NCBI GenBank assembly: GCA_020348925.1
Contig: CP070758.1
Coordinates: forward strand, 4,191,586-4,255,585
Origin: Gemmatimonadota bacterium
GTDB taxonomy: Bacteria > JBHIER01 > G020348925
Direction of reading: 5' to 3'
DNA length: 64,000 nt
Shown here: positions 18,318 to 40,040 of the stretch, one piece after another
How the letters are laid out: each line of letters starts with the position of its first letter
How positions within the stretch are numbered: position 1 is the stretch's first letter
The notes under the pieces: model-generated
What the model was told of the DNA's origin: nothing
Seen by the model: only the letters and a program-made list of their open reading frames with translations
Databases searched by the model: none
Program-made: the position numbers and the translations under genes

Positions 18318-18319
18318 AT

Positions 18320-18832
18320 CTATTCCTTCTCTTCTTCCTTGATCTTTTTCTTCGTCAAAACGACCGCTCCGACAATACCGATCAACAGCAGGATTGAGAC
18401 CATCTCAAAGGGCAACAAATATTTCGAAAAGAGCACCGTTCCCACGGCTTCGACCGTACCAAAACCCTCGGAGAGCTCGGCAGTCGGTTGTCCTGTATAT
18501 CCTTTCAGAAAGTGTATGCCCTCAATGAGAAGCAGTCCGGCCAGCACAAAGCCAAAAACTTTGAACCATCGAAATTTTCCCCACCTCAGCTCCCAGTCCC
18601 TCAGGTTCATGAGCATGATGACGAAGAGCACGAGGACCATAATGGCCCCGGCATAGACCAATATCTGCAGAATGGCGATGAGGTGGGCCGAGAGCAGGAC
18701 GTAAAGCGCCGCCAGGCAGAAGAAGCAGACCACCATGGACAGGGCGCTGTTGATGGGATTCCTGAAGGTGATGACCAGAAAGGCGGCTAAGACCGCGACA
18801 ACGGCAAATATGTAAAAGAGAACTGCGCCCAT
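18320..18832 (-). CDS. nuoJ: NADH-quinone oxidoreductase subunit J
   Basis: 170 residues with five membrane helices. Family features are [20 protein letters not shown] at the N-terminus and the third-helix stretch [16 protein letters not shown], where a pi-bulge controls coupling in known structures. The C-terminus is lysine/glutamate-rich. It begins directly after the nuoI stop codon. Confidence 0.95.
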
Positions 18833-21331: not shown

Positions 21332-21332
21332 G

Positions 21333-22559: not shown

Positions 22560-22561
22560 CT

Positions 22562-23050
22562 CTACTCCTCGGCAAAAGGGGTCGGCCGGCTCAGCTCCTG
22601 CCGCCCGTCCAGGGGATAATCCTTGCGCAGGGCGTGGCCGACGAATTCATCGTGGGTCAGAATCCTCCTCAGATCAGGATGGCCGCTGAAGGTGATGCCG
22701 AACAGGTCGTACACCTCCCGCTCAAACCAGTTGGCCGCTTTCCACAGGTGGGTCACCGTGGGCACCGTCGGATCACCCTCGGACACCTGGGCTTTGATCC
22801 TCACCCGCTCTTTCGTCTCCAGGGACATGAGGTGGTAGACCACCTCGAAACGCGGTTCTCGTCCCAGGTAGTCAACACCGCAGATATCGAGCATCATGGC
22901 GAACGCCCCGCCCTCTGGACTCAGCAGAAAGGCACCCACATCGGCGATCCGCTCCCTTCTGACCGTTATGGCCAGATCTCCCCTGAAGTCACTCACAGCC
23001 ATCACATCCTCAGCGAATTTTTCCCGCAGGCTCTGTTCGATGTCACTCAT
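22562..23050 (-). CDS. nuoC: NADH-quinone oxidoreductase subunit C
   Basis: 162 residues, the 30-kDa subunit. The diagnostic stretch EREVYDLFGITFSGHPDLRR is followed by LTHDEFVGHALRKDYPL. It stabilises the interface with NuoD. Two bases separate its stop from the nuoD start. Confidence 0.95.
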   Translation of the reverse strand: MSDIEQSLREKFAEDVMAVSDFRGDLAITVRRERIADVGAFLLSPEGGAFAMMLDICGVDYLGREPRFEVVYHLMSLETKERVRIKAQVSEGDPTVPTVTHLWKAANWFEREVYDLFGITFSGHPDLRRILTHDEFVGHALRKDYPLDGRQELSRPTPFAEE

Positions 23051-23056
23051 GCGCTC

Positions 23057-23536
23057 TTATTTCCAATCCTTGACCGATTCCTTCTCGATCTTCTCCCACA
23101 GCTTCAATACGCCGTGAATGATGCCCTCCGGCGTGGGCGGGCAGCCCGGCACATAGACGTCCACAGGTATGTACTGGTCGATGCCCTGAACCACGGAATA
23201 GTTGTTGTACAATCCCCCCGAGCAGGCACAGGCACCGACGGCGATCACCCACTTCGGCTCGCACATCTGATTGTAGATCCGCTTCAGGATCGGCACCATT
23301 TTTGTGTTGATGGTCCCCATGACGAGCATCAGATCCGACTGGCGCGGTGAAAACCTGACCACCTCGGCCCCGAACCGGGCCAGATCGTAGTGGGATGAGA
23401 CCACGGACATATACTCAATGGCGCAGCAGGCCGTCCCGAAGGGCATGGGCCACAGGGAATATTTTCTTGCCCAGTTGACCACTTTGTCAAGCTGTGTCGT
23501 GATGGCCGGACTTCCGATAGCCGTTTCTATTCCCAC
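23057..23536 (-). CDS. nuoB: NADH-quinone oxidoreductase subunit B (N2 cluster)
   Basis: 159 residues. The tandem cysteines in [11 protein letters not shown] plus those in GACACSGG and GCPPTPEGI ligate cluster N2, the last iron-sulfur centre before quinone. The 5' end overlaps nuoA by ten bases. Confidence 0.96.
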
Positions 23537-23883
23537 TCCAATGCTCCTCGCTTCCAGACGTAAAAGAGACCGATGATTAAGATCACAAGAAAAATCCCCA
23601 TCTCGATCAGGCCGAACAGTCCCAGCTTCCTGAACAGAACAGCCCAGGGGTACAGGAAGATGACCTCAATATCGAAGACCAGAAAAATGATGGCGATAAT
23701 GAAAAACTTGATGGAGAACCGCAGTCTGGCGTCCCCGATGGGGTCGATGCCGCACTCGTAGGTCATCAGCTTCTCCGGCGTCTCACGCCTCGGCCCCATG
23801 ATGTGGGAGAAGACGATGAAGAACAGGGCCAAGCCGGCGGAGAAAATAAAAATGATCAGTAATGGTATGTATTGATTAATCAT
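23527..23883 (-). CDS. nuoA: NADH-quinone oxidoreductase subunit A
   Basis: 118 residues with three membrane helices. The loop motif [20 protein letters not shown] is diagnostic for NuoA; its cysteine contacts the quinone cavity. The C-terminus ([11 protein letters not shown]) is typical. It follows nuoG by 13 bases, so this operon has the order E-F-G then A-B-C-D rather than A-to-N. Confidence 0.96.
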
Positions 23884-23896
23884 CTATCCTTATATC

Positions 23897-25471
23897 CTAT
23901 ATCTTCACTCCCTGATTGCCGATTTTATCGTAGCTCAACCCTTTATAGCGCTGCACCTTCCGGGCAATCTCATCAAAGACATCGCTGGCCGATGAATAGC
24001 CGTAATCGTGCCCCATCTTCCGGACCAGGGCCGAAATCGTCATACACCCAGGCAAAACATCCTCATGCCGAAAGGCAGGTCGAATGCGCTGAACCCGGCC
24101 CTCAAAGTTGGTGAAGGTGCCGTCCATTTCCGCAAAGGAAGCCTTGGGAAGAACGAAATGGGCCAACGCCGCTGTCCCATTCATATTCGTGTCCTGAACA
24201 ACGAGTAGTTCAAGAGCGCTCAGGGCTTCCTTGACAAGATTCTTCTCGGGGAACCGATCAATCACATCCTGGCCCATCACAAATAAAGCTTTCAGCTTAC
24301 CCTGACGCGCTGCACTCATCATGCGCTCAACATCCAGTCCCTCGCCCCTGCACCCCATCTCCTCTGCCCCCCTGCTGTTCGGACTCTTGTCAGCCTGGAT
24401 CAGGAACGCGTCACTGGAGCCCTCGCCCCTTCCGGCGGGGATGAAATCGATGTTCTTCGAACCCAGCACCTCCCTGAAGAATTTTGCAAAGAGATAATTC
24501 TCCTCGTTCGTGCAGGATGAGGAGGCTATGCCTCCCACGGAGTCCGGTCCGTGTTCGTCCGTAATCTTCCTCAGGATTTCTCCAATTGACGACAGGCCAT
24601 CATCCAGATCGACCTGCTTGTTTTGACCATCGACCTTGTGCAGCGGATCCAGGATTCGATTCGAATCGTTCACAAAGGCGTAGGACATCCTGCCTTCATC
24701 GCACAGCCAGCGGCCGTTCACATCATCATTCTGCCTGGCCCGAAACCGATAGACGGTCTGGTCTTTGAAATCGATGAGCACATTGCATCCCCGGCTGCAG
24801 CCCGGGCAGACCGACTCGGCGCTGTTCAAGCGCCATACCCGGGCTTTAAATCGAAAATCGCGGCTGGTGAGAGCACCAACGGGGCACAATTCCACAAGGC
24901 TCCCCTGGTAGTTGTTCTCAAGAGTTTTATCAATGTAGGTCCCAACCGTGGTCCGGGCCCCCCGCTCAAACACACCGTACTCTTCGATGCCGATGACGTC
25001 GCGACAGAATCGAACGCAACGAGTACAATGGACACATCGGTTCATATCCCGGACGATTTTCGAGCCGATGTCCTGCCTGGGATAACGACGCTTCTCCTCG
25101 ACATAACGGCTCTCGGCCGCCCCGTAATCGAATACGTAATCCTGGAGATCGCACTCACCGGCCTGATCGCAGACCGGACAATCCAGAGGATGGTTGATCA
25201 GTAAAAATTCCAGTACGGCGCGGCGCGCCTTCTGCACCCTGGGATTCTTTGTGGATACAATCATACCATCGCGCACCTCGGTACTGCAGGCTGTCTGCAG
25301 TTTCGGTGTATTTTCCACCTCCACGAGACAGACGCGACATGTGGCGATGATCTTCAATGACGCGTGGTAGCAAAAATGTGGGATATGAATACCCGCGGTC
25401 TTGGCCGCCTCCAGAATCGTCGTCCCGTCCGGGACATGCACATCAATATCGTCTATTTTCAGATTCGGCAC
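23897..25471 (-). CDS. nuoG: NADH-quinone oxidoreductase subunit G, short form
   Basis: 524 residues starting at a GTG (25471). Present are the 2Fe-2S ferredoxin domain (CRVCLVEVEN), the His-Cys 4Fe-4S motif (CVHCTRCVRFCRD) and the second 4Fe-4S region (ELCPVGAL), then a molybdopterin-type Fe4S4 domain (CPGCSRGCNV). The remaining oxidoreductase-like region is only about 270 residues, so the protein is much shorter than the 680-900 residues common for NuoG. The end (LSYDKIGNQGVKI) shows no sign of frameshift. Short NuoG forms exist in other bacteria; electron transfer needs only the N-terminal half. Confidence 0.92.
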   Translation of the reverse strand: MPNLKIDDIDVHVPDGTTILEAAKTAGIHIPHFCYHASLKIIATCRVCLVEVENTPKLQTACSTEVRDGMIVSTKNPRVQKARRAVLEFLLINHPLDCPVCDQAGECDLQDYVFDYGAAESRYVEEKRRYPRQDIGSKIVRDMNRCVHCTRCVRFCRDVIGIEEYGVFERGARTTVGTYIDKTLENNYQGSLVELCPVGALTSRDFRFKARVWRLNSAESVCPGCSRGCNVLIDFKDQTVYRFRARQNDDVNGRWLCDEGRMSYAFVNDSNRILDPLHKVDGQNKQVDLDDGLSSIGEILRKITDEHGPDSVGGIASSSCTNEENYLFAKFFREVLGSKNIDFIPAGRGEGSSDAFLIQADKSPNSRGAEEMGCRGEGLDVERMMSAARQGKLKALFVMGQDVIDRFPEKNLVKEALSALELLVVQDTNMNGTAALAHFVLPKASFAEMDGTFTNFEGRVQRIRPAFRHEDVLPGCMTISALVRKMGHDYGYSSASDVFDEIARKVQRYKGLSYDKIGNQGVKI

Positions 25472-25474
25472 CTT

Positions 25475-26755
25475 TTAATTTCCCACAATGGAGCGCTTAT
25501 GCTCGATAAAATATTCGTATTCGTTCCGGAACTTCCGGACCGTGCTCAACACCGGTCCGGTGGCGGCATCGCCCATGGGACAGAGAGTATTTCCGAAGAT
25601 GTTGTCGCAGATATCGGCCAGGAGGTCGATATCCTCCGGTCGTCCTTCCCCCCTCACGATTCGCGCCAGGATCTTCTCCATCCAAGCCGTCCCCTCACGG
25701 CAGGGCGTGCACTGGCCGCAGGACTCATGCTCGTAAAATTTCGACAGCCGCCACGTCGAGCGGACAATGCAAGTGGTCTCATCCATGACAATGACGGCCC
25801 CTGAACCCAGGGCGGTGCCCAAAGCCTCCAGTGACTCATAATCAAGGGTGACCTTCTCCGCCTCCTCGGCCGTCAGAATGGGCGTCGAGGACCCTCCCGG
25901 AATGACGGCTTTAAGCCTGTGACCCTCCCCCAGCCCACCCGCAACATTGTAGATGAGTTCTTTCAAGGGGACACCCAGAGGCAGCTCGTACACACCCGGC
26001 TTCTGAACGTGTCCGGAGATGCAGAAGAGCTTCGTCCCCGTACTCTTCTCCGTACCAATGCCGGCATACCAATCGCCACCCTTGGTAACGATGTGCGGCA
26101 CGTTCGAAAGGGTCTCAACATTGTTGATGACGGTCGGTCCTCCGTACAATCCGACGACAGCGGGAAATGGCGGTTTGTTGCGCGGGTTCCCGCGCTTGCC
26201 CTCCAGGGATTCCATGAGGGCCGTCTCCTCACCGCAGATATATGCTCCGGCACCACGATGGACGTAGAGATCAACGTCAAATCCCGAGCCGAGAATGTTC
26301 TTTCCCAGAAACCCGTTCTCGTGTGCCTCGGCAATGGCCTGCTCCAAAATGCGGGCTCCCTTGACGAACTCGCCCCGAATGTAAATGTAGGCGGTGTGGA
26401 TGCCGATGGCGTAACAGGAGATGATGATGCCCTCTATGAGCTGGTGAGGATCACGCTCGATGAGGACCCTGTCCTTAAAGGTTCCAGGCTCACCCTCGTC
26501 AGCATTGCAGCACAGATATTTCGGTTTTTCCGACTCTTTGGGCACAAAGCTCCATTTCAATCCGGCCGGAAAGCCGGCACCTCCCCTACCCCTGACACCC
26601 GATTTCTTGACTTCTTCGACGATCTCGCCGGGCTTCATCTCCTTCAGGGCTTTGACCAGAGCCTTGTAACCACCGCTCTCTCTGTAAACACCGATGGACT
26701 CCGAATTGGGGCGGTCTACATTCTGTAATAAAATAATCTCAGAACTGTTCATCAC
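25475..26755 (-). CDS. nuoF: NADH-quinone oxidoreductase subunit F (NADH/FMN site)
   Basis: 426 residues. GRGGAGFPAGLKWSF binds FMN and NADH, and ESCGQCTPCREGTAWM with a later cysteine (NTLCPMGDAA) holds cluster N3. This subunit oxidises NADH and passes electrons to NuoE/NuoG. Its ATG overlaps the nuoE stop by four bases. Confidence 0.96.
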   Translation of the reverse strand: MMNSSEIILLQNVDRPNSESIGVYRESGGYKALVKALKEMKPGEIVEEVKKSGVRGRGGAGFPAGLKWSFVPKESEKPKYLCCNADEGEPGTFKDRVLIERDPHQLIEGIIISCYAIGIHTAYIYIRGEFVKGARILEQAIAEAHENGFLGKNILGSGFDVDLYVHRGAGAYICGEETALMESLEGKRGNPRNKPPFPAVVGLYGGPTVINNVETLSNVPHIVTKGGDWYAGIGTEKSTGTKLFCISGHVQKPGVYELPLGVPLKELIYNVAGGLGEGHRLKAVIPGGSSTPILTAEEAEKVTLDYESLEALGTALGSGAVIVMDETTCIVRSTWRLSKFYEHESCGQCTPCREGTAWMEKILARIVRGEGRPEDIDLLADICDNIFGNTLCPMGDAATGPVLSTVRKFRNEYEYFIEHKRSIVGN

Positions 26756-27237
26756 TCTGAATTTCTTCTCAACTGGTCGAGGAGCGCATCGAGCTTTTCG
26801 ATCGTCAGATCCTCATAATAATCATCATTCACCATCATAACGGGCGCGTTTCCGCAGGCACCAAGACACTCAACTTCAATGAGGGTGAAGAGACCATCGG
26901 CCGTTGTTTCCCCAACCTTGATTCCCAAGGTCTCTCCGAGATAGGTTACCAGTTTCTCCGCCCCCAAGAGGGAACAGGAGACATTGGTACAGACTTGCAG
27001 GAGGTATTTCCCGACCTCCTGCCGCTGATACATTGTATAAAAGCTGACACCCCGGTAGACACGAACGTGGGGCAGGCCGAGAAGTCCGGCAATAGCATCC
27101 ATCCGATCAACGGTGAAAGAACCGAACTCCTTCTGGGCGAGATGAAGGGTAGGCAGTAACGCGGATTCCTTGTCCGGATATCGTGTGAGAATATTTTCGA
27201 AAGCTTTTTTACCTTCAGCGGAAAACTCGAATGCCAT
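26752..27237 (-). CDS. nuoE: NADH-quinone oxidoreductase subunit E (2Fe-2S)
   Basis: 161 residues, thioredoxin-like fold. Cysteines of the 2Fe-2S cluster appear in VCTNVSCSLLGA and ECLGACGNAPVM. It is the first gene of the nuo operon. I see no strong Shine-Dalgarno sequence before the ATG at 27237. Confidence 0.95.
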   Translation of the reverse strand: MAFEFSAEGKKAFENILTRYPDKESALLPTLHLAQKEFGSFTVDRMDAIAGLLGLPHVRVYRGVSFYTMYQRQEVGKYLLQVCTNVSCSLLGAEKLVTYLGETLGIKVGETTADGLFTLIEVECLGACGNAPVMMVNDDYYEDLTIEKLDALLDQLRRNSE

Positions 27238-27937: not shown

Positions 27938-29896
27938 TCATTTCCTCTCATTTTTTTGGACGTTCTTCAACAAAACCTCATATTCAAGAGGATGCTCCTT
28001 GATCATTTCCTCCTCTGAAATTCTGCCCGTAATACATGTGGTTTTCATGGGAAAGGTTTCCGGATCAAAGAAGACGAAGTAGAAATGCCACACAATAATA
28101 GCCAGGGTGGCTAGGATTGCTTCATAGTAGTGAACGACAGTAGCGACGTCCATGATAACTTTTGGAAATGTTTTCATGGCTGCATTCTCGAACCACAGGA
28201 TGAGGCCTGAAACCCCCATGACGAATGTTCCCCAAACGAGGGCCCAATACTCCGCTTTTTCGGCATAATTGTACCGCCCGTACTTCGGTCTCTCTTTGGA
28301 AAGCCCCACCAGGTAGAGAAACATTTGGACGACATCCCGCATATCCTGAAAATTTGGAAGAAGCGCCACAATCTGTTCACGGCCCCGTTTTGTGAAGGCT
28401 ATGTAAAAGGCATGATATACTGCCAGGATGATAAAAATCCCCCCTGCCAGTCGGTGCACAAACCCACGCAGGGCGAACATTCCAGGGATTTTCAGCAGGG
28501 GAGCAACCAACCAGCATTCAGGGAATTTTAATGCGAAGCCCGTAATAACGAGGATAAAGAAGCTGGTGAACAAGATGAAATGTTGCACCCGCTCATTGAG
28601 TGTCAGTCGGACAAACTCCTTATCGCCTAAGGTTTCAGGTTCGTGTTCACGAATTCCTTTAAATTTGGCGATGATTTTCTTGAGCAGATCCAAACCATTA
28701 TGTAGGAGCATTCCCCCGATCACACACACTATGAGAATGATGTAAACGGCAGTGAGATAGTATATGGTTTTGTCTCTCTGGGGGGAGGGTAGAAGGTGAA
28801 TGGACCCAACGGCCACCTTCTCACCGACGTCAGGATGGCATCTCCCGCAGGTTGCAGGGAGATTGGCTTTGTTGACAGAGGAGCTCGGATCATCGTGCGG
28901 TCTGATATCATGGAGGCCGTGACAGTCCCCACAGGTGGCCGTTTTCGCGTCGCCGGACCTCGCTGCCAAGCCGTGGAAATCATCCAAATAACTTTCAACA
29001 ATGCCCGGGGTGAGTCCGTACTTGGCAAGAATTCTGTCGGAACTGTGGCACCAGATGCAATCACCGACCGAAGGATCTCCCTTGTAGAGGAGCTCACCCG
29101 TCTCCCAAGGTTTCGAAAAGACGTGCTCCCCGTGACAATCACTGCACGTCGGTGCATCCGCGGCACCGGCCAGAACGGCCTTGGCATGGATCCCTTCCAG
29201 GTAAGCATCCTGTTCTTCAGGATGGCACGATCCGCATGTTTTGTGGATTTTGAGCCGATTGATCATCGACTCCGGGTCAGTGGCCGACTTCAAAGTGTGA
29301 CTGCCATGGCAATCGTTACAGGCGGCTGCTCCAAACGACTCATTTTCCGTAAGTGCGACAAAATGGATGCCGTTCTTGTATCCATCTGTTGGATAGGGTC
29401 CAGGCGTCGACAGCTGCTCAACGTGCCGATGATCGGCATGGCACTTCGCACACATCTGGACAATGTTGGGAGGATACAACTTCGACTTCTCATCATCCTC
29501 CGTCAGAATATAATGGGCACCATGACACCCAGAGCACGTGGGAGCATCCTTCACCTTCTTGGCCAGAGCCTTTCCGTGGAGACTCTCCGCATAGAGTTCC
29601 TGAGCATCATCGTGACAGAGACCGCAATCAACAGGACCCGATGTCTCACCGGGGTGTGTTTCCATATCAACGTCGGTGTGGCAGCCACCACACTCAACGG
29701 GACCATGAACGGACTCTAAGAACCGCTCCTCGTCTACAAAGAGAGAAATTTCAACACCCTCTTCCGTCTCCATGGTCAACGTACTGTCCCCGTGGCAGGC
29801 AGAGCAATCGTTATCCGGACCGGCCGCAGCCGGTGTTGCTCCAAGAAACAAAAAATACACAGGAAACATCCACATGAAAGGTCTTGGGAAACGCAT
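27938..29896 (-). CDS. Undecaheme cytochrome c fused to FdnI/HydC-type cytochrome b (CbcL-like)
   Basis: 652 residues. A signal sequence (residues 1-25, ending PAAA) exports residues 31-365, which contain eleven CxxCH heme sites: CSACH, CGGCH, CGLCH, CSGCH, CAKCH, CNDCH, CGSCH, CSDCH, CIWCH, CGDCH and CGRCH. Several extra histidines (ESVHG, ESLHG, GIHAK, DFHG) could be distal ligands. Residues 385-620 form a membrane domain with about five helices and well-placed histidines (MLLHNG, ERVQHFILF, VHRLAGG, VYHAFY, VVHYYEA, VWHFYF), like the cytochrome b of formate dehydrogenase-N and hydrogenases. This c-b fusion recalls CbcL of Geobacter, a menaquinol oxidase that feeds periplasmic cytochromes. 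Here it lies near fdhAB, which have no separate FdnI, so it may take electrons from formate or from menaquinol; that is inference. GGAG precedes the ATG. Confidence 0.85.
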   Translation of the reverse strand: MRFPRPFMWMFPVYFLFLGATPAAAGPDNDCSACHGDSTLTMETEEGVEISLFVDEERFLESVHGPVECGGCHTDVDMETHPGETSGPVDCGLCHDDAQELYAESLHGKALAKKVKDAPTCSGCHGAHYILTEDDEKSKLYPPNIVQMCAKCHADHRHVEQLSTPGPYPTDGYKNGIHFVALTENESFGAAACNDCHGSHTLKSATDPESMINRLKIHKTCGSCHPEEQDAYLEGIHAKAVLAGAADAPTCSDCHGEHVFSKPWETGELLYKGDPSVGDCIWCHSSDRILAKYGLTPGIVESYLDDFHGLAARSGDAKTATCGDCHGLHDIRPHDDPSSSVNKANLPATCGRCHPDVGEKVAVGSIHLLPSPQRDKTIYYLTAVYIILIVCVIGGMLLHNGLDLLKKIIAKFKGIREHEPETLGDKEFVRLTLNERVQHFILFTSFFILVITGFALKFPECWLVAPLLKIPGMFALRGFVHRLAGGIFIILAVYHAFYIAFTKRGREQIVALLPNFQDMRDVVQMFLYLVGLSKERPKYGRYNYAEKAEYWALVWGTFVMGVSGLILWFENAAMKTFPKVIMDVATVVHYYEAILATLAIIVWHFYFVFFDPETFPMKTTCITGRISEEEMIKEHPLEYEVLLKNVQKNERK

Positions 29897-30127
29897 TGAT
29901 TTACTCCATCTGCATCGTCTTTTTTGTTATCACAATGATCAACTTTAATAATTATGGTAGCTTGATTGCTCAATACCATCGTTCAAAGGATTTAAATATA
30001 TAAAAAATTGATTTGGTATGCATTAAGAAATCTGGTTTTTTGTATGATTGAGAATAAAAAAGGGGGACACACTACTCTGGGAGTGAAGTGATTACAATGA
30101 AGAGTTCATCAGGGGTGGGTTGGATGC

Positions 30128-30167
30128 CACTGTCGCCGGGATCACACAAAGGATCCCGGCGACAGTG
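30128..30167 (-). terminator. Long perfect hairpin after the tetraheme cytochrome gene
   Basis: Sixteen base pairs (30128-30143 with 30152-30167) and an 8-base loop, starting ten bases after the stop of the gene ending at 30177. No T-run follows on the minus strand, so it may act as an mRNA 3' stabiliser or a factor-assisted terminator. Confidence 0.7.
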
Positions 30168-30176
30168 TCCAACACG

Positions 30177-30788
30177 TTACTCCTTTTTTTCGGTCTCTTC
30201 AGGAGGGTACGGATGCGCTATTGCCTGAACGGCTTCTTTGAATTTGAAAGGTTTGTACGTCGGACTGTTTTTGTTGTGGCATGTCACGCAGAGTTCCTCG
30301 GTCTGGTCCCACAGACCCACTTCCTTGCGATCCTGTGTTCCTGCTCTCAAAGCTTTCATCACCTTGTTCGACCAATAGTCCGAACCCGGACCGTGACAGG
30401 CTTCGCAACTCACACCCTCCTCGTACGTCAGGCGTTCGCTCTTGAGGCTGTCAGGAACTCCATATGCTGTCACATGACAGGGCAAACACTCGGCGGCCTT
30501 CTGGGGTTCCGTCTTCAGCTCGAGCTTCTTGGCGAGTTCAAGAGACTGTTCGCTCGCCAATTCCGCAAATGCCTTGGCGTGAGGTCCACTCTCCCACACC
30601 TTGGATTGGGCGCCGATCTTACTTCCCAAGTGGCATGGTTTGCATTTCTTATACCCGACATACGAGAAAACCTTTTCAGGAGCTTTTATCTTCTCGGTCT
30701 TGGCCTCCTCCTGATCGCTGCACATGGTGCCCACTGCAAATATGAGACCCATGGCAACGAGTACGGCCAAGAGTTTTAAAAATCTCAT
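30177..30788 (-). CDS. Tetraheme cytochrome c (c554-like)
   Basis: 203 residues. A signal sequence (MRFLKLLAVLVAMGLIFAV) ends in GTMCSDQ; the cysteine might be lipidated although the lipobox is poor. Four CxxCH sites follow: CKPCH, CLPCH, CEACH and CVTCH, spaced as in cytochrome c554-type proteins, with GPHAKAF giving a likely distal histidine. It is predicted to be a periplasmic or membrane-anchored electron carrier. The gene is 59 bases behind a porin gene and is followed by a long hairpin, so porin plus cytochrome form one unit. That pairing is typical of porin-cytochrome conduits, but an outer-surface cytochrome is not seen here. Confidence 0.82.
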   Translation of the reverse strand: MRFLKLLAVLVAMGLIFAVGTMCSDQEEAKTEKIKAPEKVFSYVGYKKCKPCHLGSKIGAQSKVWESGPHAKAFAELASEQSLELAKKLELKTEPQKAAECLPCHVTAYGVPDSLKSERLTYEEGVSCEACHGPGSDYWSNKVMKALRAGTQDRKEVGLWDQTEELCVTCHNKNSPTYKPFKFKEAVQAIAHPYPPEETEKKE

Positions 30789-30847
30789 ATGGTACCCTCC
30801 TTTCCATACATCTCCGTTCCAGAAGGGACGGGTAAACGACTCTAAGC

Positions 30848-31894
30848 CTATGGAGCAACGTGGAATTGGAGTAAGATCAAATCGTTGTCGATGGACTCGT
30901 CCATCCCCCAGTCTTCCTGCTCCATTTTGTGGATGAAGTTGAGGTAGATCATCGCATTCCAGGAATCGATATAATGGTTCACACCCAAGGTGATCCAGGT
31001 CCAGGCATCTTCTTTCGACTCGCTGTCAGTATTCGGGTCAACGAAATCGTAGCGTCCAAGAATCCCCCACTGCGCATTGACCTTGTACTCGGCATGAGCA
31101 TAGTAACTCATACTTGATACGTCATCAGCGTTCCCGAACATTTCCTGGGTCCTGGAAATGAACTCAACTGTACCCTCAAACTGCTCATGCATGAACGAGG
31201 CAAAACCGCCGAACATATTGGTTGCAAGGTCCTCGTCTTCTGAAAGAAGAAGATTCCCTAACCAGGCATAGCCTCCGATATGGAGCATCGATGCCATCTC
31301 CTTCTTCCAGTCAACACGTAAGAGGACATCCTTGGCGTCATTGTCATCAGACCAGTTGTTGGTACAGATTCCATCGCAGTCACTTCCATTGAAGACACCC
31401 ACATTAAAGTTCCACATACCGGCTTCATTCTCAATCTGGGTGTCAGTTTGAAAACCGACCTGACGCCAAACAGCAAATCCATATCCGGAATGGAGAAATA
31501 GCGGGTAGTTAATCATATTGAGCTTGCCGGTATGCATGGGCATGTATTTAGTGAAGTTGGGGAGAAACCGACCTATGATGATGCTCGTCTTTGGAATGTA
31601 ATTGAGGAGGATCATCTTGTAATCCAGAATAGCAGGTGCCCCCACAAACTCAGTCTGGACAAAATATTTTACACGATCAGGGCAGATGGTACCAGACAAG
31701 AGAAGTCTGGCTCTGTTCAACGTGAATTGACCGTTCGTGACTAGCGAGTCCTCCTCCAAGCTATAGTCAAAACGAGATTGTAATATGGCCCCAATTTTCA
31801 GGTCGCCCTTGCCCACCTTCACTTCGGCCAACTGCGCTGAGGCCACGCTGGCTATAAAAAACACCGCAATTCCTATCACCATTAACCTTTTCAT
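30848..31894 (-). CDS. Outer-membrane beta-barrel porin (phosphate-selective porin O/P type)
   Basis: 348 residues with a clear signal peptide (MKRLMVIGIAVFFIASVASA). The mature part alternates hydrophobic and polar residues in strands (KIGAILQSRFDYSLEE, FTLNRARLLLSGTI, YFVQTEFVGA), and ends in an aromatic-rich strand (LILLQFHVAP). It resembles OprO/OprP-like porins often found next to cytochromes in respiratory clusters. It might pass small anions or ensheath a cytochrome; the sequence cannot distinguish these. AGGAGG precedes the ATG. Confidence 0.75.
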   Translation of the reverse strand: MKRLMVIGIAVFFIASVASAQLAEVKVGKGDLKIGAILQSRFDYSLEEDSLVTNGQFTLNRARLLLSGTICPDRVKYFVQTEFVGAPAILDYKMILLNYIPKTSIIIGRFLPNFTKYMPMHTGKLNMINYPLFLHSGYGFAVWRQVGFQTDTQIENEAGMWNFNVGVFNGSDCDGICTNNWSDDNDAKDVLLRVDWKKEMASMLHIGGYAWLGNLLLSEDEDLATNMFGGFASFMHEQFEGTVEFISRTQEMFGNADDVSSMSYYAHAEYKVNAQWGILGRYDFVDPNTDSESKEDAWTWITLGVNHYIDSWNAMIYLNFIHKMEQEDWGMDESIDNDLILLQFHVAP

Positions 31895-32090
31895 CTCATT
31901 CTCCTCCTTTTAAATTAAGATCGCAAACAAATGTTCCCATCCTTCTCTGCCCAAAAACACAGGTGAAATGGCCGATCAAATCACCCCATACACACCTCCT
32001 TTCTTTTTTCCCATACATCTTTCTCCGTCTGTTTATCCTCTCAATGTATCGACCTCCTTTCAAACCCCATATATCCCTCCTCTATCTTAC

Positions 32091-33233
32091 TTATTCCTGG
32101 TTCAAATATCCCTCTTTCTTTAATTCCTGATACAGATCTTTCCCCTCCCCAAGACTCATAAAAATGAGTTGAGAACTGATTGTGGCTGATGTCACCGCAT
32201 CAACCTCCGGATCGAAATCGAACGCCTCCAGGAGTGACCTGCCCTCGAGTCGATCCCTCATCTTCCCGACATCCTTATCATCCCACTCCCAATTGCCCTT
32301 CTTCGTCAGGTGAACCGGATCGAAACGAAGAATGATTCCCTCTTCGTCAAAGACATAGATGAAATGGATGTCGTGACACACATCGCAGAAGGAGGCCCTT
32401 GAAACAATTTTAGCGAAGCGCTTCTTCTGTCCGTCATCACAGGAAAGATTTCCTACGTAGACAACACCCGCTTCCGGGAGGTTGACTCTCTTCATTTCCG
32501 TCACCCTTCCACCCGTATCCTCCATGGAACGCGTGATCATATCGACGAGTTCCTCCTCTGACAGAGCGGGTTTTATCTCCTCCTTCACTTGAATCGGCAC
32601 CTCGGAGGATCGCCGCAGGGTGAGCAAACCCACATCATACTGAAGGACCGCCCGTATCTCTTCCACAAAACCCTTATCGGAATAGATCACCCCCCTGTGA
32701 GCACTGGCAACGATTCTGTGGCCTTGACTATCCTTTCGGAGTAAAATGGTGAACGGCGTTTTGGGACTTCCAACAGCGTCATAAGCCACGAAGTCGGCAT
32801 CAGGCACAAGGGGAAACTGAACTCCCGTCTCCCCGCGGAACACCTCCAGCTGGTGACGCGTGTTGCCGGCTCCGACACCGATCATCTTGACTCTGTCACG
32901 AAGGTTCGCATCGGCCTCAATGGCGTTATATGCCAGAACAAAGACCGGTGCTTGCACCTGACAGTGAAAACAGTACTTATTCAAGAACTCGACAACCACC
33001 AACTCTTCCTCGATATCCTCGACCGTGAAGGTCTCCTCATCCCCGAGACCGAGATACTCCCGCTCCCTCTCATTTAAAACGTTGGGAAAGGCAAGATCCG
33101 GAAACACATCCCCCAGCCTGAGTATCGGGCTTCGATCCTCATTGAGGGCCGAAGATCCCCAAAGCAGGGATATCCAGAGGACCACTATCCCTGGGAAACG
33201 AATCAGCAGGAAAGTATGTTTCGCAGTATGCAT
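32091..33233 (-). CDS. Exported thioredoxin-like protein with a CxxCH heme motif and FMN-binding-like tail
   Basis: 380 residues from the ATG at 33233, with GAAGGG upstream and a hydrophobic export signal (about 8-30); a GTG at 33269 overlapping the fdhE stop is the alternative. Residues 40-200 look like a TlpA-type thioredoxin domain with CFHC at 88-91. The C-terminal part has CDVCH at 283-287, a possible c-type heme site, and DAVTSATISS near 345-354, which resembles the threonine motif where FMN is attached in FMN_bind domains. A periplasmic redox protein serving cytochrome or formate dehydrogenase maturation is plausible. I know no named protein with this order of parts. Confidence 0.55.
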   Translation of the reverse strand: MHTAKHTFLLIRFPGIVVLWISLLWGSSALNEDRSPILRLGDVFPDLAFPNVLNEREREYLGLGDEETFTVEDIEEELVVVEFLNKYCFHCQVQAPVFVLAYNAIEADANLRDRVKMIGVGAGNTRHQLEVFRGETGVQFPLVPDADFVAYDAVGSPKTPFTILLRKDSQGHRIVASAHRGVIYSDKGFVEEIRAVLQYDVGLLTLRRSSEVPIQVKEEIKPALSEEELVDMITRSMEDTGGRVTEMKRVNLPEAGVVYVGNLSCDDGQKKRFAKIVSRASFCDVCHDIHFIYVFDEEGIILRFDPVHLTKKGNWEWDDKDVGKMRDRLEGRSLLEAFDFDPEVDAVTSATISSQLIFMSLGEGKDLYQELKKEGYLNQE

Positions 33234-33265
33234 TTCGAAAATCCCTTCTTCCTTCTCTTCATGCT

Positions 33266-34174
33266 TCACCCGTTCCTGGCAAGAGGTTCCTCTTCAATCC
33301 CAAATAAGTATTGCCCGGGATTCCGAAATCCCTCTTGAGCAGCCAAGATGTCCAGAAAAATGGTGGCCAAGTTTTCGACGGCAAGAATCACCTCTTTGCC
33401 TTCCTCCATCTTGCGCTCATCGACCGTCTTTATATATCTTTTACACGCATCGCACACATCCACCCGATAAGGGCTCCCCTCGTCGACGAAGAAGAACCTC
33501 AACGTCTCGTGATCGTCGTTGAGACAATAAGGACACTGAAGGCGGCGAAAGGCCCACTCAGTACTGCACAAGGAACACTGAAAAATACGGCGTCCCTCCT
33601 CTTTTTCCAGTGCGGCCATAATTGGCTCGTGGCCGCATACCGGACAAAACGGCTCCACCCATTTGGCGTCCTTAACCGTATTCATCACTTTGCTAGCCAA
33701 CAGTTCGAAAAAAGGCTTGACCGTCTGGATTCCGAGATACTGAAGATGTTCGCCGTCCACTTCGAACTCTCTTGATAACAATTCGAAATAATGCACATCT
33801 CTTTCTGCGGCCTTGCGGACAAACTCCCTGATATCGAACGAGGTATCGTTCACTGTTTTTCTGAGACGCTGGATATCATCAGAGTCCCCTGGTCCATATT
33901 TTTCCAGAGTATCACAGATATTCCGGAACAGATCCTCAAAAGGTACACCTTCGAGCGTGATATGCGTAAAATCCAAAAGATGAACGCCATCCTTCATTTT
34001 CTGAGCCATCTCCGGCGAAGAGATGCCGATCGACAACCTCTTGTTTTCCAAATTTTTCTTGAATTCCAACTGGTGCCGAGTGAGATCTTTGAAAAAAGAA
34101 ACGAGTTCTTGCGGTACATGCTCGTTCTTTCGGAGTAACTCGATCTCTACTTCAATAGTGTCCCAGGATACCAT
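33266..34174 (-). CDS. fdhE: Formate dehydrogenase accessory protein FdhE
   Basis: 302 residues from the ATG at 34174; a TTG at 34204 would add ten residues. Four rubredoxin-like CxxC pairs are visible: CPVCG, CSLC, CPYC and CDAC, which bind iron in known FdhE. FdhE helps assemble or activate respiratory formate dehydrogenases before Tat export. It lies between fdhD and the thioredoxin-like gene in a mobA-fdhD-fdhE unit, matching the Tat-exported selenoenzyme at 37023-40040. Confidence 0.9.
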   Translation of the reverse strand: MVSWDTIEVEIELLRKNEHVPQELVSFFKDLTRHQLEFKKNLENKRLSIGISSPEMAQKMKDGVHLLDFTHITLEGVPFEDLFRNICDTLEKYGPGDSDDIQRLRKTVNDTSFDIREFVRKAAERDVHYFELLSREFEVDGEHLQYLGIQTVKPFFELLASKVMNTVKDAKWVEPFCPVCGHEPIMAALEKEEGRRIFQCSLCSTEWAFRRLQCPYCLNDDHETLRFFFVDEGSPYRVDVCDACKRYIKTVDERKMEEGKEVILAVENLATIFLDILAAQEGFRNPGQYLFGIEEEPLARNG

Positions 34175-34300
34175 ATATAGGTGTTTCCATAAAGAAGTCC
34201 ACAAAATAGCCGAAAAATAATTTCAGAAATTATAACATTATATGAGGTAAAAGTCAAGTGTTTTTTTAAGATCATCCCACATTTTTTCCAAAGGACAGAC

Positions 34301-35101
34301 TTAGAAGAGGGGGACGGATTCGGCTTTTTGAACCACCCGTTCATCTCCAGAATAGACGGTCAGTCTCGCACCTCTGACAAATCCAATGAGTGTAACTTTG
34401 AGTTTTTTTGCGAGATGAATGGCTAAATCCGTAGGCCCAGATCTGGACACAAGCATCGGTACTGCCTGCTTGGCCACCTTGATGAGCATCTCTGACGTCA
34501 ATCTTCCACTCGTTACCATAATCTTATCGTCCGTCCTGATTTCTTCTAAAAAACACTCTCCCAATATCTTATCAATTGCATTATGTCTCCCTATATCCTC
34601 TCTGAACATCACAATCTCATCTCCCAGACACAGTGCACACGTGTGCACGCCTCCTGTCGCTTTGAAAAGCTCTGATTTTCCATTCACTTCCCTCATGAGG
34701 TTCCGGATAGTGCTTGGCATAACCCGGACCTTCGACGTGACAGGTCGACATTGCAGGCGATCGGCGGCATTGTAAAAGACGGCTCCTTTTCCACATCCCG
34801 ATGTGATGGTTCTTTTTTGAAAGATTTCTCTGGGGAACTCTATATCACGTGATGTCTGAACACTCACCGTTCCCCGATCCTCGGAAAACACGACCGATTG
34901 CACATCCTCCTTTTCTTGAAGGAAGCCCTCGGACAATAAGAAGCCGACGGCCAAATTTTTCTGGTAAGAGGGAGTACACAACAAGGTGACGAGCTCCTGA
35001 CCGTTGAGAACAACGGTCAGGGGTGTTTCCCGAGCTACGACATCCTCCATTCTATTTTCTTTATCCTCCGAAATGCGAAGGATCTCGACACCTTCCGTCA
35101 C
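34301..35101 (-). CDS. fdhD: Formate dehydrogenase sulfurtransferase FdhD
   Basis: 266 residues, starting at a GTG (35101) seven bases after mobA. The mobile-loop CxxC motif GGVHTCALCLGDE that accepts sulfur from IscS is present, followed by REDIGRHNAIDKILG, a strong family signature. FdhD sulfurates the molybdenum-bis-MGD cofactor, which is essential for formate dehydrogenase activity. Confidence 0.95.
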   Translation of the reverse strand: MTEGVEILRISEDKENRMEDVVARETPLTVVLNGQELVTLLCTPSYQKNLAVGFLLSEGFLQEKEDVQSVVFSEDRGTVSVQTSRDIEFPREIFQKRTITSGCGKGAVFYNAADRLQCRPVTSKVRVMPSTIRNLMREVNGKSELFKATGGVHTCALCLGDEIVMFREDIGRHNAIDKILGECFLEEIRTDDKIMVTSGRLTSEMLIKVAKQAVPMLVSRSGPTDLAIHLAKKLKVTLIGFVRGARLTVYSGDERVVQKAESVPLF

Positions 35102-35108
35102 CCCATGC

Positions 35109-35753
35109 TTACGACTCCTGGCCTTCGATAAGCGCCTTCATCTTCTGATAGTCCTCTCGATAATTGATATTGAAAAAGGTTCTGAGCTCGGGATCGAAAC
35201 GTTCAATCTCGTTCTGCTGGATATACTTCGTCCGAACCGACCCATAAAAGGACTGCAGCTTCAAAACGCCTCTTTGTAAATTGTTCTGGATGGGCTCGAG
35301 ACATGCCTTTGAATAGACGGCGTGCAAGGGCTCAAGACCGGCCGCAAGCTGGGGTACTACGACGTCAAATTTTTCGCAACCAACCAGCATATACCCAATG
35401 AGATCGGAATTGAGAAAGGGCATGTCGCAGGCGACGACAAAATTGTATTGCGTCTCAGAGACCGAGAGGCCCGTGTACAGTCCGCCCAATGGCCCTTTCC
35501 CAGAGACAATATCCCTGACTTTTGAAGCAACGGGAAAATCATATTCTTCGGGCTGATTCGTCACAAGAACAATTGTCTCACAGAGCGCATCCAGCGTTTC
35601 TATGATATCCAGGATAAGTGGGCGATCGCCCAGAGGCAGAAGGGCCTTATTCGTCGATATTCTGGTGCAACGCCCACCGGCAAGGATAATACCCGTTACG
35701 GATTCGTTCTTGTCGGCCCGGTGGTATTTTTTATGTGATTGATAAGGACTCAC
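35109..35753 (-). CDS. mobA: Molybdenum cofactor guanylyltransferase
   Basis: 214 residues, GTG start. The nucleotide-binding motif ILAGGRCTRISTNKALLPLG is near the N-terminus, then VVACDMPFLNSDLI, as in MobA. It adds GMP to molybdopterin to make MGD, the cofactor form used by FdhA. It is the first gene of the mobA-fdhD-fdhE unit, and a palindrome (35932-35947) lies in its promoter region. Confidence 0.9.
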   Translation of the reverse strand: MSPYQSHKKYHRADKNESVTGIILAGGRCTRISTNKALLPLGDRPLILDIIETLDALCETIVLVTNQPEEYDFPVASKVRDIVSGKGPLGGLYTGLSVSETQYNFVVACDMPFLNSDLIGYMLVGCEKFDVVVPQLAAGLEPLHAVYSKACLEPIQNNLQRGVLKLQSFYGSVRTKYIQQNEIERFDPELRTFFNINYREDYQKMKALIEGQES

Positions 35754-35931
35754 AAACGACTCAATTCAACTCTCAATCTCTTCCCAGTCAATCTCAGAAT
35801 TCTTTGTTCTTCTCACGCAACTCTCAAAAAAAATGATGATCATCCATTCTTTATCATGTTCTCGTCTCAGTCCCCACGTCGCCCTCATCATCTTGAGAGG
35901 CCTTGAAGAGACTATACGTTAAATTAATGAT

Positions 35932-35947
35932 ATTCCCCATGGGGAAT
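35932..35947. promoter_or_regulatory. Perfect 16-bp palindrome upstream of mobA
   Basis: ATTCCCCATGGGGAAT. On the minus strand TTGATT overlaps its start and TAATTT follows about 18 bases later, so the palindrome would sit between the -35 and -10 boxes, as repressor operators often do. The binding protein is unknown. Confidence 0.45.
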
Positions 35948-36168
35948 CAAGTCATTTTCCAGTAGACTCCAGTATTTTAGCCACGTTAGGAAATCCTTGA
36001 GGCCGTAACCCAATAGGGAGGAGTATGTTGAGGGAAACATGCTGCTGACGACCGATCGGAATCAAACTGATCAATCAACGTTCCATCTCCATTTTTTTCC
36101 AATGAGGGAGAAGCTCTTGAGGATTTTTCAGAGGAATCAATTCGGACATTTTCCGCGTCTCAACATGA

Positions 36169-36204
36169 AATACCCCGAGGTCTCTTCCGAGACCTCGGGG
36201 TATT
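36169..36204 (-). terminator. Terminator-like hairpin after fdhB
   Basis: Perfect 16-bp stem (36169-36184 with 36189-36204) and TTCC loop, 35 bases after the fdhB stop. No long T-run follows. Confidence 0.7.
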
Positions 36205-36238
36205 CGAAACCCGAACGTGACTCCTGAGATGCTCCTTC

Positions 36239-37018
36239 TTATGAAACTTCGACGTTCTCTTTCTCTCTCCTCATACCCTCCTCACGTCTCTTGAAGAGCA
36301 TACCCAGAAATCCCGCAGTAAGCCACACAGGTGCCATCGGCGAGAAGACTTTCTTCATCCCGTACTTCACCTTCGAAACCTCCCGCAACAGACCCATCTC
36401 AAACCGATCCTCGGCTTCGTGCAACAGATAGATCCAGCGCACGTCTTCCAGATCCATGAGTTGAGCGTTCGGATAGCTCTTCCCCAAATCCTGCAACCGC
36501 TTCTGAGCCAGAGCCATAATCTTATCACGGTCACCGAAGGTCAGTGTCCCGGTGGGACAGGCCTTGACACAGGCCGGCTTCAACCCATTGGCCACCCGAT
36601 CATGACAGAAGGTGCACTTGACCCACTCCGACTTGACATCGCTCCACCGAGGAATATCCCACGGGCACGCCTCGTTTAAGTCCTTCAACTGCTTCGTTTT
36701 GTCCGTGTAGACGACGCAGCCATTGTCGTCCACCACAATGGCCCCCGGAGCCTCATCATCGGCCGTCATCTTACAAGGAGGGTCAACACAGTGACGGCAC
36801 TGGTCCTTGAAGAAGTTCCATTTCATCTCGCCGCCCACAGAAAGCTCCTTGAAACGGACCACAGTGTACGTCATACCCGACAAATCGGGTGGGTTCTGGT
36901 AAGTGCCCCGGTTCTTCGTCTTCTCCGCCGGCAGTTCGTTCCACTGCTTGCAGGCCACCTGGCACCCCCGACACCCGATACACTTGGAAACGTCTATCAA
37001 AACCGATTTTCCAGCCAC
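36239..37018 (-). CDS. fdhB: Formate dehydrogenase iron-sulfur subunit
   Basis: 259 residues with four 4Fe-4S sets: CIGCRGCQVACKQW at the N-terminus, CRHCVDPPC, a cysteine in EACPWDIPRW, and CTFCHDR...ACVKACPTGT. It passes electrons from FdhA towards a membrane acceptor. Near the C-terminus PVWLTAGFLGMLF is hydrophobic and may be a membrane anchor, as in FdnH. The gene starts four bases after fdhA. No FdnI-type subunit follows; a hairpin ends the unit. The N-terminus lacks a Sec or Tat signal, so it would be carried across with FdhA. Confidence 0.92.
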   Translation of the reverse strand: MAGKSVLIDVSKCIGCRGCQVACKQWNELPAEKTKNRGTYQNPPDLSGMTYTVVRFKELSVGGEMKWNFFKDQCRHCVDPPCKMTADDEAPGAIVVDDNGCVVYTDKTKQLKDLNEACPWDIPRWSDVKSEWVKCTFCHDRVANGLKPACVKACPTGTLTFGDRDKIMALAQKRLQDLGKSYPNAQLMDLEDVRWIYLLHEAEDRFEMGLLREVSKVKYGMKKVFSPMAPVWLTAGFLGMLFKRREEGMRREKENVEVS

Positions 37019-37022
37019 TCTG

Positions 37023-40000
37023 TCACACCCCCTTTCTCACGTTGACCAGAAAGGCCTTCGATTCTTGAATCATGGTGTTGGCATCACCGATGTTGGGAAC
37101 GAGGACGTTGGCACTGTCCCCTGTGGCCAAACCCATAAAACCGTAGCACCACGGTAAACCAACCTGATGAACAATGGTGTCACCGATCTTGAAGGGTTTG
37201 AACCGCTCGGTCACGATGGCCACTGCCTTGATATCGCCTCGGGCCGACTGGACGGTGCACTTTTCACCGTTCTTGATCTGCAGCTCACCAGCCAGCTCTG
37301 TGCTCATCTCAACGAACATATCCGGCTGAAGCTCAGCCAGCCACGGCTGCTGACGGGTCATGGCCCCGGTCTGCCAGTGCTCGGAGACACGGTAGGTCGT
37401 AGCCACGATGGGATATCTCGGATCGCACACCCCGGCGAACTTGTCCATATCACCACCAAGCTTATCCCAACGCTTGGACGTCGGGTTGAGCTGGACGCTA
37501 GACATCATGTTCTTGGTCGGACACTCCAGCGGTTCATAATGCTCGGGGAACGGTCCATCGGCAAGTCCCATCCCGAAGATTCTGGCATGGCCCTCCGGCT
37601 TCATAATGAAGGGATGTTTTGTCTTCTCCGCATTCACCATCGGCGGCCAACCACCGTCAGGTACATCACCGACCCAACCGCCCGCACCGTCCTTTGCGGT
37701 AGGATCCCACCGAATGACAGGATGCTCCTTGTCCCAGGGTTGGCCGTTCTTATCCACGGAAGCCCGATTGTAGATGATCCGGCGGTTCACCGGCCAGCAC
37801 CAGGACCACTCAGAATAGAGACCGACGCCCGACTTATCCTCGGTACTCCTGCGGGCTGCCATGTTACCGGCCTCGGTGTAGCTGGCGCAATAGAGCCAGT
37901 TGCCGGATGATGTTGTCCCATCATCCATCAATTTACCGAAAGAGGGCAACAACTCTCCGGTTGTCAGATCGTACCCGTTAATCTCCTTGGCTACTGCGTG
38001 AACGTCGACGTGATCGCCTTTGGCATAGTCCCATTTCAATTTGGTCACCGCTTCGGGCAAAACACCGCCTTCTTGGTCATACAGTTTCTTCACGCGAACG
38101 TAAAGCTCATTGATGATCTCGCTGTCGGGGAGAGCATCACCAGGAGGATCGACCGCCTTGTAACGCCACTGGCTCCAGCGCCCGCTGTTGGTGATGGAGC
38201 CTTCCTTCTCCATGGACGCGGCGCAGGGCAGTAAGAAGACTTCGGTCTTGATCTTCTTTGGATCCGCCCCAGGTCCTTTCCAGAACGCGCCCGTCTCCGT
38301 CTCCCAGAGGTTCACGTTGACCATCCAGTCCAGCTTGCTCAAGGCTTCGCGGGTCATGTTCGAATTCGGCCCGCTCACGGCCGGATTCATGCCCCAGGCG
38401 AAGAACCCCTTAAACTCGCCGTTGTACATGGCATTGAAGAGTGAAATCCACGAATAGTTCGCACCATCGTCCAGTTTGGGCAGATATTGATAGTCGAACT
38501 CATTCGCCGCAGTGGCATGATCACCATAGAACGACTTCAGCAAGCTCACTGAGTACTTGGCATAATTGCCCCACCAGTTGGCACTCTTGGGATCTTTTGT
38601 CTTGGGCGTGTATTTCTCATTGTACGCCTGAAGAGTGGTATCCGAAGCCCGCGGAGTCTTCAGGTAGCCGGGGAGAATATGGAAGAGCAAGCAGTGATCC
38701 GTTGAACCCTGCACGTTGGACTCTCCCCGAAGCGCGTTCACACCACCACCCGCCACACCGATGTTGCCCAAGAGGAGCTGAATGATGGCCATGGTTCGGA
38801 TGTTCTGGGTACCCACCGTATGCTGGGTCCAACCCATGGCGTACATGATGGTCGCAGCCTTGCCGGGTTTCCCCGTGGCTGAATATGCCTTGTAAACCTT
38901 GAGCAGATCCTCCTTGGGCGTCCCAGTGATGGATGAAACCTTGTCCAAATCATACCGGGAGAAATGCTTCTTGAGGAGCTGAAAAGCGCACCGCGGATTT
39001 TTCAGGGTTTTGTCCTGCTTCGGGATGCCATTCCCGTCCAGCTGATAGGCCCACGTCGCTTTGTCATATTTACCCGCTTTCTCGTCATACCCCGAGAAGA
39101 GGCCATCCTCAAAATCGAACTTTTCGCTGATCAAAAGCGATCCGTTCGTATACTCGGCCACATACTCCATGTTATAGAGGTCATTGTCCAGGATGTGTTT
39201 GATCATTCCGCCCAAAAAGGAGATATCCGTTCCTGAACGGAGTCGAGCATAGATATGTGCCTTGGAAGATGTCCTCGTGAATCGGGGATCGACGCTGATC
39301 AGGGTCGCACCGTTCTCCACGGCCTTCATCACCCATTTGAAGGAGATGGGGTGATTCTCAGCCGCATTACTTCCCATAACCAAAATACAGTCGCTATTTC
39401 CAATATCGATCCAATGATTGGTCATAGCACCTCGGCCGAACGACTCTGCCAGAGCCGCAACAGTGGCCGAGTGTCATATACGCGCCTGGTGTTCGATATA
39501 CACCAGGCCCAACGAGCGCAAAAATTTCTGATAGAGCCAGCACTCCTCATTGTCCAGGGCCGCACTCCCCACGGAAGCGAGCCCATCGCAACGGTTGACC
39601 ACTTGCCCCTTTGCGTTCTTCGCTGCAAATGTGTCGTCACGTGCTTTCTTGATCCGTTTGGCAATCTCATCAAGAGCCCAGTCCCAGGATTTTTTCTCCC
39701 ACGTGTCGCTGTAGGGAGCTCGATACATCACGTGTGTAATCCGGCGCTCGTTGTTGGCCAGCTGATACAACGAAGAGCCCTTCGAGCACAGCGAGCCTTG
39801 ATTGATGGGATGATCGGGATCACCCTCGATGTTGATCACCTTCCCCTTGCTGGCTGACACGATCGCTCCACAGCCGACGGCACAATAGGGACAGATAGTC
39901 GTACTCTCTTTCGCGTATTTGATCTTCAACTCTTGGGCGTATGCGCGTGCCGGTCCCAGATCGAAGAGACGATGTCCCAGAAGACCACCAGTCGCGGTTG

Positions 40001-40040
40001 CACCCGCCAGTTTGAAAAATCCTCTTCTCGAAATGCCCAT
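37023..40040 (-). CDS. fdhA: Selenocysteine formate dehydrogenase major subunit (UGA read-through at codon 189)
   Basis: 1005 residues if the in-frame TGA at 39476-39474 is read as selenocysteine. The flanking protein, EHQARI-Sec-HSATVAALAESFGRGAMTNHWIDIG, matches the active site of FdnG/FdoG-type enzymes, and the length is close to theirs. A Tat signal (ISRRGFFKLAGA) precedes a 4Fe-4S motif (CPYCAVGCG...CSKGS). The enzyme oxidises formate to CO2 on the periplasmic side using molybdenum- or tungsten-bis-MGD. A typical bacterial SECIS hairpin follows the UGA (39428-39473). Without recoding it would look like two genes, 39474-40040 and 37023-39425. fdhB follows at once; mobA, fdhD and fdhE lie downstream. 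selABCD are not in the window. Confidence 0.95.
39428..39476 (-). promoter_or_regulatory. SECIS element directing selenocysteine insertion in fdhA
   Basis: Starting right after UGA, CACUCGGCC (39473-39465) pairs with GGCCGAGGUG (39437-39428, one bulged G). An upper stem ACU-G-UUGC (39464-39457) pairs with GCAGAGU (39449-39443), closing the loop GGCUCUG. The loop begins 17 bases after UGA and is preceded by GUUGC, as I recall for E. coli fdhF, where SelB binds the apical loop. Confidence 0.85.

Follow-up and report, generated by a model that had tools for sequence, protein, structure and literature searches.

A predicted CbcL-like 11-heme cytochrome c/b fusion encoded beside a Desulfovibrio-type formate dehydrogenase in a Gemmatimonadota genome

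Gene order and hairpins of the locus

The window analyzed here, a 64 kb stretch of DNA, is part of a 5.04 Mb single-contig genome, and all of its genes from fdhA through the gene for a multiheme cytochrome c/b fusion share the minus strand and form one run. The run opens with fdhA (37023..40040), which encodes the molybdo/tungsto formate dehydrogenase alpha subunit with selenocysteine at an in-frame TGA; this codon and a bSECIS-like stem-loop 3′ of it occupy 39424..39478 (z -2.5). The next gene, fdhB (36239..37018), encodes the iron-sulfur beta subunit with three, not four, [4Fe-4S] motifs and an FdnH-like C-terminal hydrophobic helix, and at the end of fdhAB lies a perfect, terminator-like hairpin with 16-bp arms and a weak U tail (36169..36204, z -5.6). 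The accessory genes comprise a mobA-like molybdenum cofactor nucleotidyltransferase (35109..35753), the formate dehydrogenase (FDH) sulfurtransferase fdhD (34301..35101; PF02634, 4e-84), and the FDH accessory gene fdhE (33266..34204), with a promoter-like site just 5′ of the latter (34257-34229; 11/12, extended -10). FdhE shares a 4-base overlap with a gene for a thioredoxin-like protein that has one CxxCH and a C-terminal FMN_bind-like region (32091..33269). Then come a 348-aa Porin_O_P-like outer-membrane porin (30848..31894), a periplasmic tetraheme cytochrome c of the c554 family (30177..30788), a second perfect hairpin with 16-bp arms in the gap between the tetraheme and fusion genes (30128..30167, z -7.5), and, as the next gene 3′ of the tetraheme gene, the fusion itself (27938..29896), a protein of 652 aa consisting of a signal peptide, a c domain, a linking helix and a b domain. 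The end of fdhAB is thus separated from the group of porin, tetraheme and fusion by 6.3 kb on the minus strand. The initial annotation of this DNA had described fdhA and fdhB as lacking a separate cytochrome b and ending in a hairpin, with one protein of eleven CxxCH sites and an FdnI/HydC-like domain about 6 kb further on the same strand and a porin and tetraheme cytochrome beside it, and this description proved correct throughout.

Both hairpins belong to a set of just three perfect inverted repeats that the 64 kb window contains with arms of 13 bp or more and loops of 3-12. The hairpin at 30128-30167, which the initial annotation did not contain, is as strong as the one after fdhB; it sits directly 3′ of the tetraheme gene and is followed by 231 bp of 34% GC and then by the fusion. 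As a strong U tract is absent from both hairpins, we infer termination at the two sites from the stems. If a hairpin marks the end of fdhAB, as the initial annotation had it, then by that same criterion the hairpin at 30128-30167 would place the fusion in a separate unit: the unit of fdh accessory, porin and tetraheme genes would stop before the fusion, which would be transcribed on its own.

The FMN_bind-like C-terminus of the thioredoxin-like protein contains the motif DAVTSATIS, and a full-length thioredoxin/FMN_bind homolog is encoded directly 5′ of fdhA in another genome (G419; L174 11547-12497). No Rfam family matched the region at gathering threshold, the fdhA stem-loop included. Elsewhere in the window, reading by eye showed a UbiA/MenA-like prenyltransferase frame (19330-20271) among the complex I genes (about 12981-27237), an arrangement that may link menaquinone synthesis with nuo.

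Formate dehydrogenase and the cytochrome fusion

FdhA carries a Tat signal (RRGFFKL), and the single in-frame TGA of fdhA falls on the selenocysteine codon, as it does in almost every relative. Against D. gigas FdhA (1h0h_A), the protein reaches 1356 bits, compared with 982 bits against E. coli FdnG, and for FdhB the E-values are 3e-70 with D. vulgaris FdhB and 5e-46 with FdnH. All four Cys ligands of one cluster are missing from FdhB, three from the third motif and one, the last, from the second motif; the same four Cys are kept in Zixibacteria FdhB and in all examined FdhB with FdnI or NrfD partners. Judged from its sequence, FdhAB is of the Desulfovibrio type, being nearest to the soluble FdhAB of D. 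gigas and D. vulgaris and not to FdnGH. A C-terminal hydrophobic helix of FdhB (about residues 224-242, hydropathy 1.54) aligns with the FdnH membrane helix and probably tethers the protein; it is also found in FdhB of Zixibacteria from which both FdnI and the fusion are missing (L046, L096, L097). The three-cluster Desulfovibrio pattern and an FdnH-like C-terminal membrane helix are thereby seen together in one protein. A family search found no separate FdnI/HydC-type b subunit in the fdh operon or in the genome, where PF01292 is matched only by the fusion and by the cytochrome b of the bc complex; the latter was considered as a second FdnI candidate and rejected. Desulfovibrio FdhAB are soluble enzymes without FdnI that pass electrons to the tetraheme cytochrome TpIc3 and then to menaquinone via Qrc (PMC13397495). 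Since the absence of FdnI is normal for FdhAB of this type, its absence here needs no substitute.

The c domain of the fusion spans residues 31-367 and contains exactly 11 CxxCH sites (residues 31-354), which cannot be attributed to chance because all 11 are invariant in 15 aligned homologs of 37-45% identity. Eleven further c-domain His (64, 81, 107, 128, 178, 200, 237, 258, 308, 329 and 367) are invariant in the 15 homologs, a pattern that fits 11 bis-histidine c hemes with presumed one-to-one His pairing. By hydropathy, five hydrophobic segments follow residue 375 (the signal peptide not counted), one linking and four FdnI-like, and the low-confidence AlphaFold2 model of the fusion agrees with these five; run on single sequences, AlphaFold2 reached a mean pLDDT of 45 for the fusion and 32 for the porin, and only the run of membrane helices came out as expected. 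The four-helix b domain (residues 430-612) belongs with FdnI by family models, as the HMM comparison proposed in the initial annotation bears out: the fusion matches Pfam Ni_hydr_CYTB at 2.3e-15, the NCBIfam FdnI gamma model TIGR01583 at 7.7e-22 (under the equivalog cut-off), and 1kqf_C at 3.4e-9. Four invariant His of this domain (H439, H481, H589 and H604) align with H18, H57, H155 and H169 of E. coli FdnI, its heme ligands in the 1kqf structure, and the residue opposite N110 of the FdnI quinone site is N543. The initial annotation had allowed that the b domain might lack quinone- and heme-binding residues, which is not so. A direct search of the genome contigs returned one b-domain fragment only.

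These features support the fusion as a CbcL-like, quinone-linked membrane cytochrome with intact b-heme ligands, the placement with CbcL/MtrH/MtoC being made by domain architecture, heme ligands and published descriptions. The analogy with CbcL drawn in the initial annotation is therefore borne out by the intact b-heme ligands, the multiheme c domain and the FdnI-like b domain. The CbcL/MtrH/MtoC family comprises 138 homologs from 15 phyla with 3-23 CxxCH and lengths of 416-1034 aa, and its members are proposed to run in both directions (PMC6295460). CbcL itself carries nine c hemes with bis-His ligation, its c domain has a midpoint near -194 mV, and PpcA receives its electrons (PMC9129911).

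Occurrence and neighborhoods in other genomes

We compared the locus with 133 Zixibacteria genomes and with 290 genomes sampled from many bacterial families; in the comparison, the phylum of the window is represented by the window genome alone, and conservation of neighborhoods is accordingly read outside the phylum. The fusion is matched at E < 1e-20 in 108 of the 133 Zixibacteria genomes, mostly at full length, and at the same threshold in 61 of the 290 scattered genomes, some with split c and b domains. The best matches mostly have 11 hemes, otherwise 10, 13, 17 or 19. FdhA is encoded in 18 of the 133 Zixibacteria genomes. With p-values that ignore shared ancestry and MAG incompleteness, the fusion is present in 12 of these 18 and in 96 of the 115 FdhA-negative Zixibacteria genomes (p 0.11, odds ratio <1), and, in a count that takes in partial matches, in 11/26 FdhA-positive versus 50/264 FdhA-negative genomes of the 290 (odds ratio 3.1, p 0.01), a co-occurrence above expectation. 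Elsewhere, fusion genes stand alone, beside longer c/b paralogs, or near other multiheme cytochrome clusters. The longer paralogs (about 930-980 aa, 19-21 CxxCH) lie in tandem with the fusion in Zixibacteria (L057 10763-13714, L059 6079-8928, L060 1313-4153, L063 484-3279). The survey for a fusion near fdhAB without fdnI, which the initial annotation had suggested, found no other locus, among those read in Zixibacteria and elsewhere, with the fusion adjoining fdh, and a conserved fdh-fusion neighborhood was rejected. The fusion architecture is common and is not tied to formate dehydrogenase.

The tetraheme cytochrome was likewise rejected as an FDH-linked gene: its homologs are found in 105 of the 133 Zixibacteria genomes, and the closest ones adjoin neither fdh nor the fusion. 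As another type of cytochrome-quinone link, a row of genes elsewhere in the window genome for a heptaheme cytochrome, Fe-S, NrfD-like and molybdopterin subunits, a hexaheme NrfH-like protein and an HdrD-like protein (G000:C1:4529000-4539000, L048) could encode a Psr/Qrc/DsrOP-like complex; the cluster was rejected as a clear Qrc, since none of its matches reached equivalog level.

The usual gene order of Zixibacteria FDH loci is fdhE, in part a diheme cytochrome gene, fdhA, fdhB, a porin gene, a gene for a six-helix protein, and mobB/mobA/fdhD. In many of these FDH operons, the gene separating fdhE from fdhA encodes a small diheme cytochrome c (L046 11479-11997, L097 1806-2288, L100, L102, L104, L113), which is not seen in the window and is a likely electron acceptor. 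The six-helix membrane protein 3′ of the porin is conserved in these operons and has a weak ABC_cobalt match (L046 16900-17541 and homologs). Outside Zixibacteria, fdhAB is accompanied by fdnI (L169, L172, L177), by an NrfD-like subunit (L173, L174, L176, L180, L181, L186), or by neither (L178, L182 and others). On the FdhA tree (n=38), the window copy falls into a supported clade that mixes these partner classes; partners have thus been exchanged.

The porin shows the closest association with FDH, having homologs in 13 of the 18 FdhA-positive and in none of the 115 FdhA-negative Zixibacteria genomes (p 2e-14, again ignoring ancestry and MAG incompleteness). In 11 of the 13 genomes, its gene is adjacent to fdhAB, usually directly 3′ of fdhB; besides window 30848-31894, porins of this family are encoded at L046, L096, L099-L101, L104-L108 and L112. 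The window porin itself has no significant Pfam match, MtrB_PioB included, and none in a PDB profile search; among 12 porin homologs, three match Porin_O_P (best 7.5e-13) and none matches MtrB_PioB. The simplest reading of the exclusive FDH link is that the porin probably admits formate across the outer membrane, and the link makes outer-membrane formate uptake testable. We found no description of this FDH-linked porin family, which is apparently undescribed. Beside FDH operons, mostly those with the NrfD-like subunit, lie genes of another porin family, which is divergent, about 380-410 aa long and weakly similar to DcaP (L097 6163-7386, L109 4881-6110, L180 12093-13211, L186 5719-6855).

Possible electron routes and comparison with known systems

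The locus probably comprises two side-by-side modules, a Desulfovibrio-type FdhAB and an independent cytochrome of the CbcL type, connected, if at all, via periplasmic cytochromes. In the first module, formate would enter via the porin and be oxidized in the periplasm by FdhAB, served by its maturation genes, and the electrons would pass to a cytochrome c, for which the neighboring tetraheme protein is a candidate. In the second, the fusion would hold 11 bis-histidine c hemes on the periplasmic side and two b hemes in its FdnI-like four-helix domain, and would exchange electrons between menaquinone, bound near the cytoplasmic side, and periplasmic cytochromes c. The two modules, if they meet, would do so through the periplasmic cytochrome pool. 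With the FdnI-like quinone site on the cytoplasmic side, energy would be conserved when electrons run from the c hemes to menaquinone and spent when they run the other way. The initial annotation had put the fusion in place of FdnI, a claim that is not supported: FDH of the Desulfovibrio type normally lacks FdnI, the fusion is set off by a hairpin of its own, and it is frequent in FdhA-negative Zixibacteria and missing from 6 of the 18 FdhA-positive ones. An intact fdnI elsewhere in the genome, combined with loss of the fusion from relatives that keep fdhAB, had been named as evidence against that claim; a second fdnI was not found, whereas several relatives that keep fdhAB do lack the fusion. 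Counting against the two-module reading are the run of genes on one strand, the position of the fusion next to the tetraheme gene, the FdhB membrane helix, which would suit a membrane partner, and the co-occurrence of FdhA and the fusion across the 290 genomes.

The same observations leave some room for a route in which the fusion substitutes functionally for FdnI without docking to FDH, with electrons passing from FdhAB through the tetraheme cytochrome, the 11-heme domain and the b hemes to menaquinone; we regard it as possible, though tentatively so. It would agree with the failure to find another FdnI in the genome, with the retained quinone-site and heme residues, and with the closeness of the genes, and the cross-family co-occurrence points the same way. 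The potential of formate is near -0.42 V and that of menaquinone near -0.07 V. The path from formate through a CbcL-like c domain (-194 mV in CbcL, PMC9129911) to menaquinone would thus run downhill, in a family proposed to be bidirectional (PMC6295460). However, most fusion-bearing Zixibacteria have no FdhA, the FdhA-bearing ones without the fusion (incomplete MAGs) number 6 of 18, a hairpin precedes the fusion, and the widespread tetraheme homologs in their closest cases stand next to neither partner. Given a cytoplasmic-side quinone site, such a route would form an energy-conserving redox loop doing the job of Qrc or FdnI. A complete formate loop, in which porin-fed FdhAB would reduce menaquinone through a periplasmic cytochrome and the 11-heme fusion working in the quinone-reducing direction, seems to us doubtful; if true, it would mean energy conservation by components more commonly associated with electron transfer to the outside of the cell.

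Physical docking of FdhAB on the b domain, which would make the fusion a true FdnI replacement with an 11-heme exit, could draw on the FdnH-like helix of FdhB and the FdnI-like b domain, but it is very improbable: FdhB lacks one cluster of the FdnH relay, its helix is kept where both FdnI and the fusion are missing, the fusion adjoins fdh at no other locus read, and on the periplasmic face of the b domain FdhAB would be expected to meet competition from the fusion's own c domain. The porin-cytochrome conduit to extracellular acceptors suggested in the initial annotation, formed from the porin, tetraheme and fusion, is the least credible reading. Gene order favors it, as do Zixibacteria fusion homologs that are sometimes near clusters of 8-10-heme cytochromes (L061, L062). 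Yet the porin, at 348 aa, would be small for an Mtr-type sheath, is Porin_O_P-like in 3 of 12 homologs and is linked to FDH rather than to cytochromes; the only multiheme cytochrome adjacent to the porin is the tetraheme, whose homologs have only a signal peptide; and a genome search with the MtrB/PioB family model, which does not cover Geobacter-type conduit porins, gave no match.

The preferred combination of two modules resembles several known systems in part. FdhAB shares with the Desulfovibrio enzymes (PDB 1h0h, 6sdr) the nearest sequence, selenocysteine, a three-cluster beta subunit and the absence of a gamma subunit, and differs in the C-terminal hydrophobic helix of FdhB and in the nearby porin and thioredoxin/FMN genes. 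With E. coli FdnGHI (PDB 1kqf), it has in common the C-terminal helix of the beta subunit, and the b domain of the fusion is an FdnI homolog that keeps the four His ligands of the hemes; however, there is no separate FdnI here, and one of the four beta-subunit clusters is missing. As in FdhABC3 and in the FdhAB-TpIc3-Qrc route of SRB, a periplasmic FDH would feed multiheme cytochromes c and then menaquinone, whereas any quinone partner would in this case be of the CbcL type; a Qrc equivalog was not detected. The porin recalls Porin_O_P (OprO/OprP) in size and in the weak family matches of three homologs, but is tied to FDH. Finally, the fusion shares with CbcL/MtrH/MtoC of Geobacter, Rhodoferax and Dechloromonas an N-terminal bis-His multiheme c domain, an HydC/FdnI-like b domain and predicted electron exchange between quinone and cytochrome c, and differs in having 11 instead of 9 c hemes, five predicted helices (six in most members, 4-5 in a few), and an fdh/porin neighborhood that is not described for CbcL; an 11-heme CbcL-type cytochrome is thereby placed in the lineage of the window.
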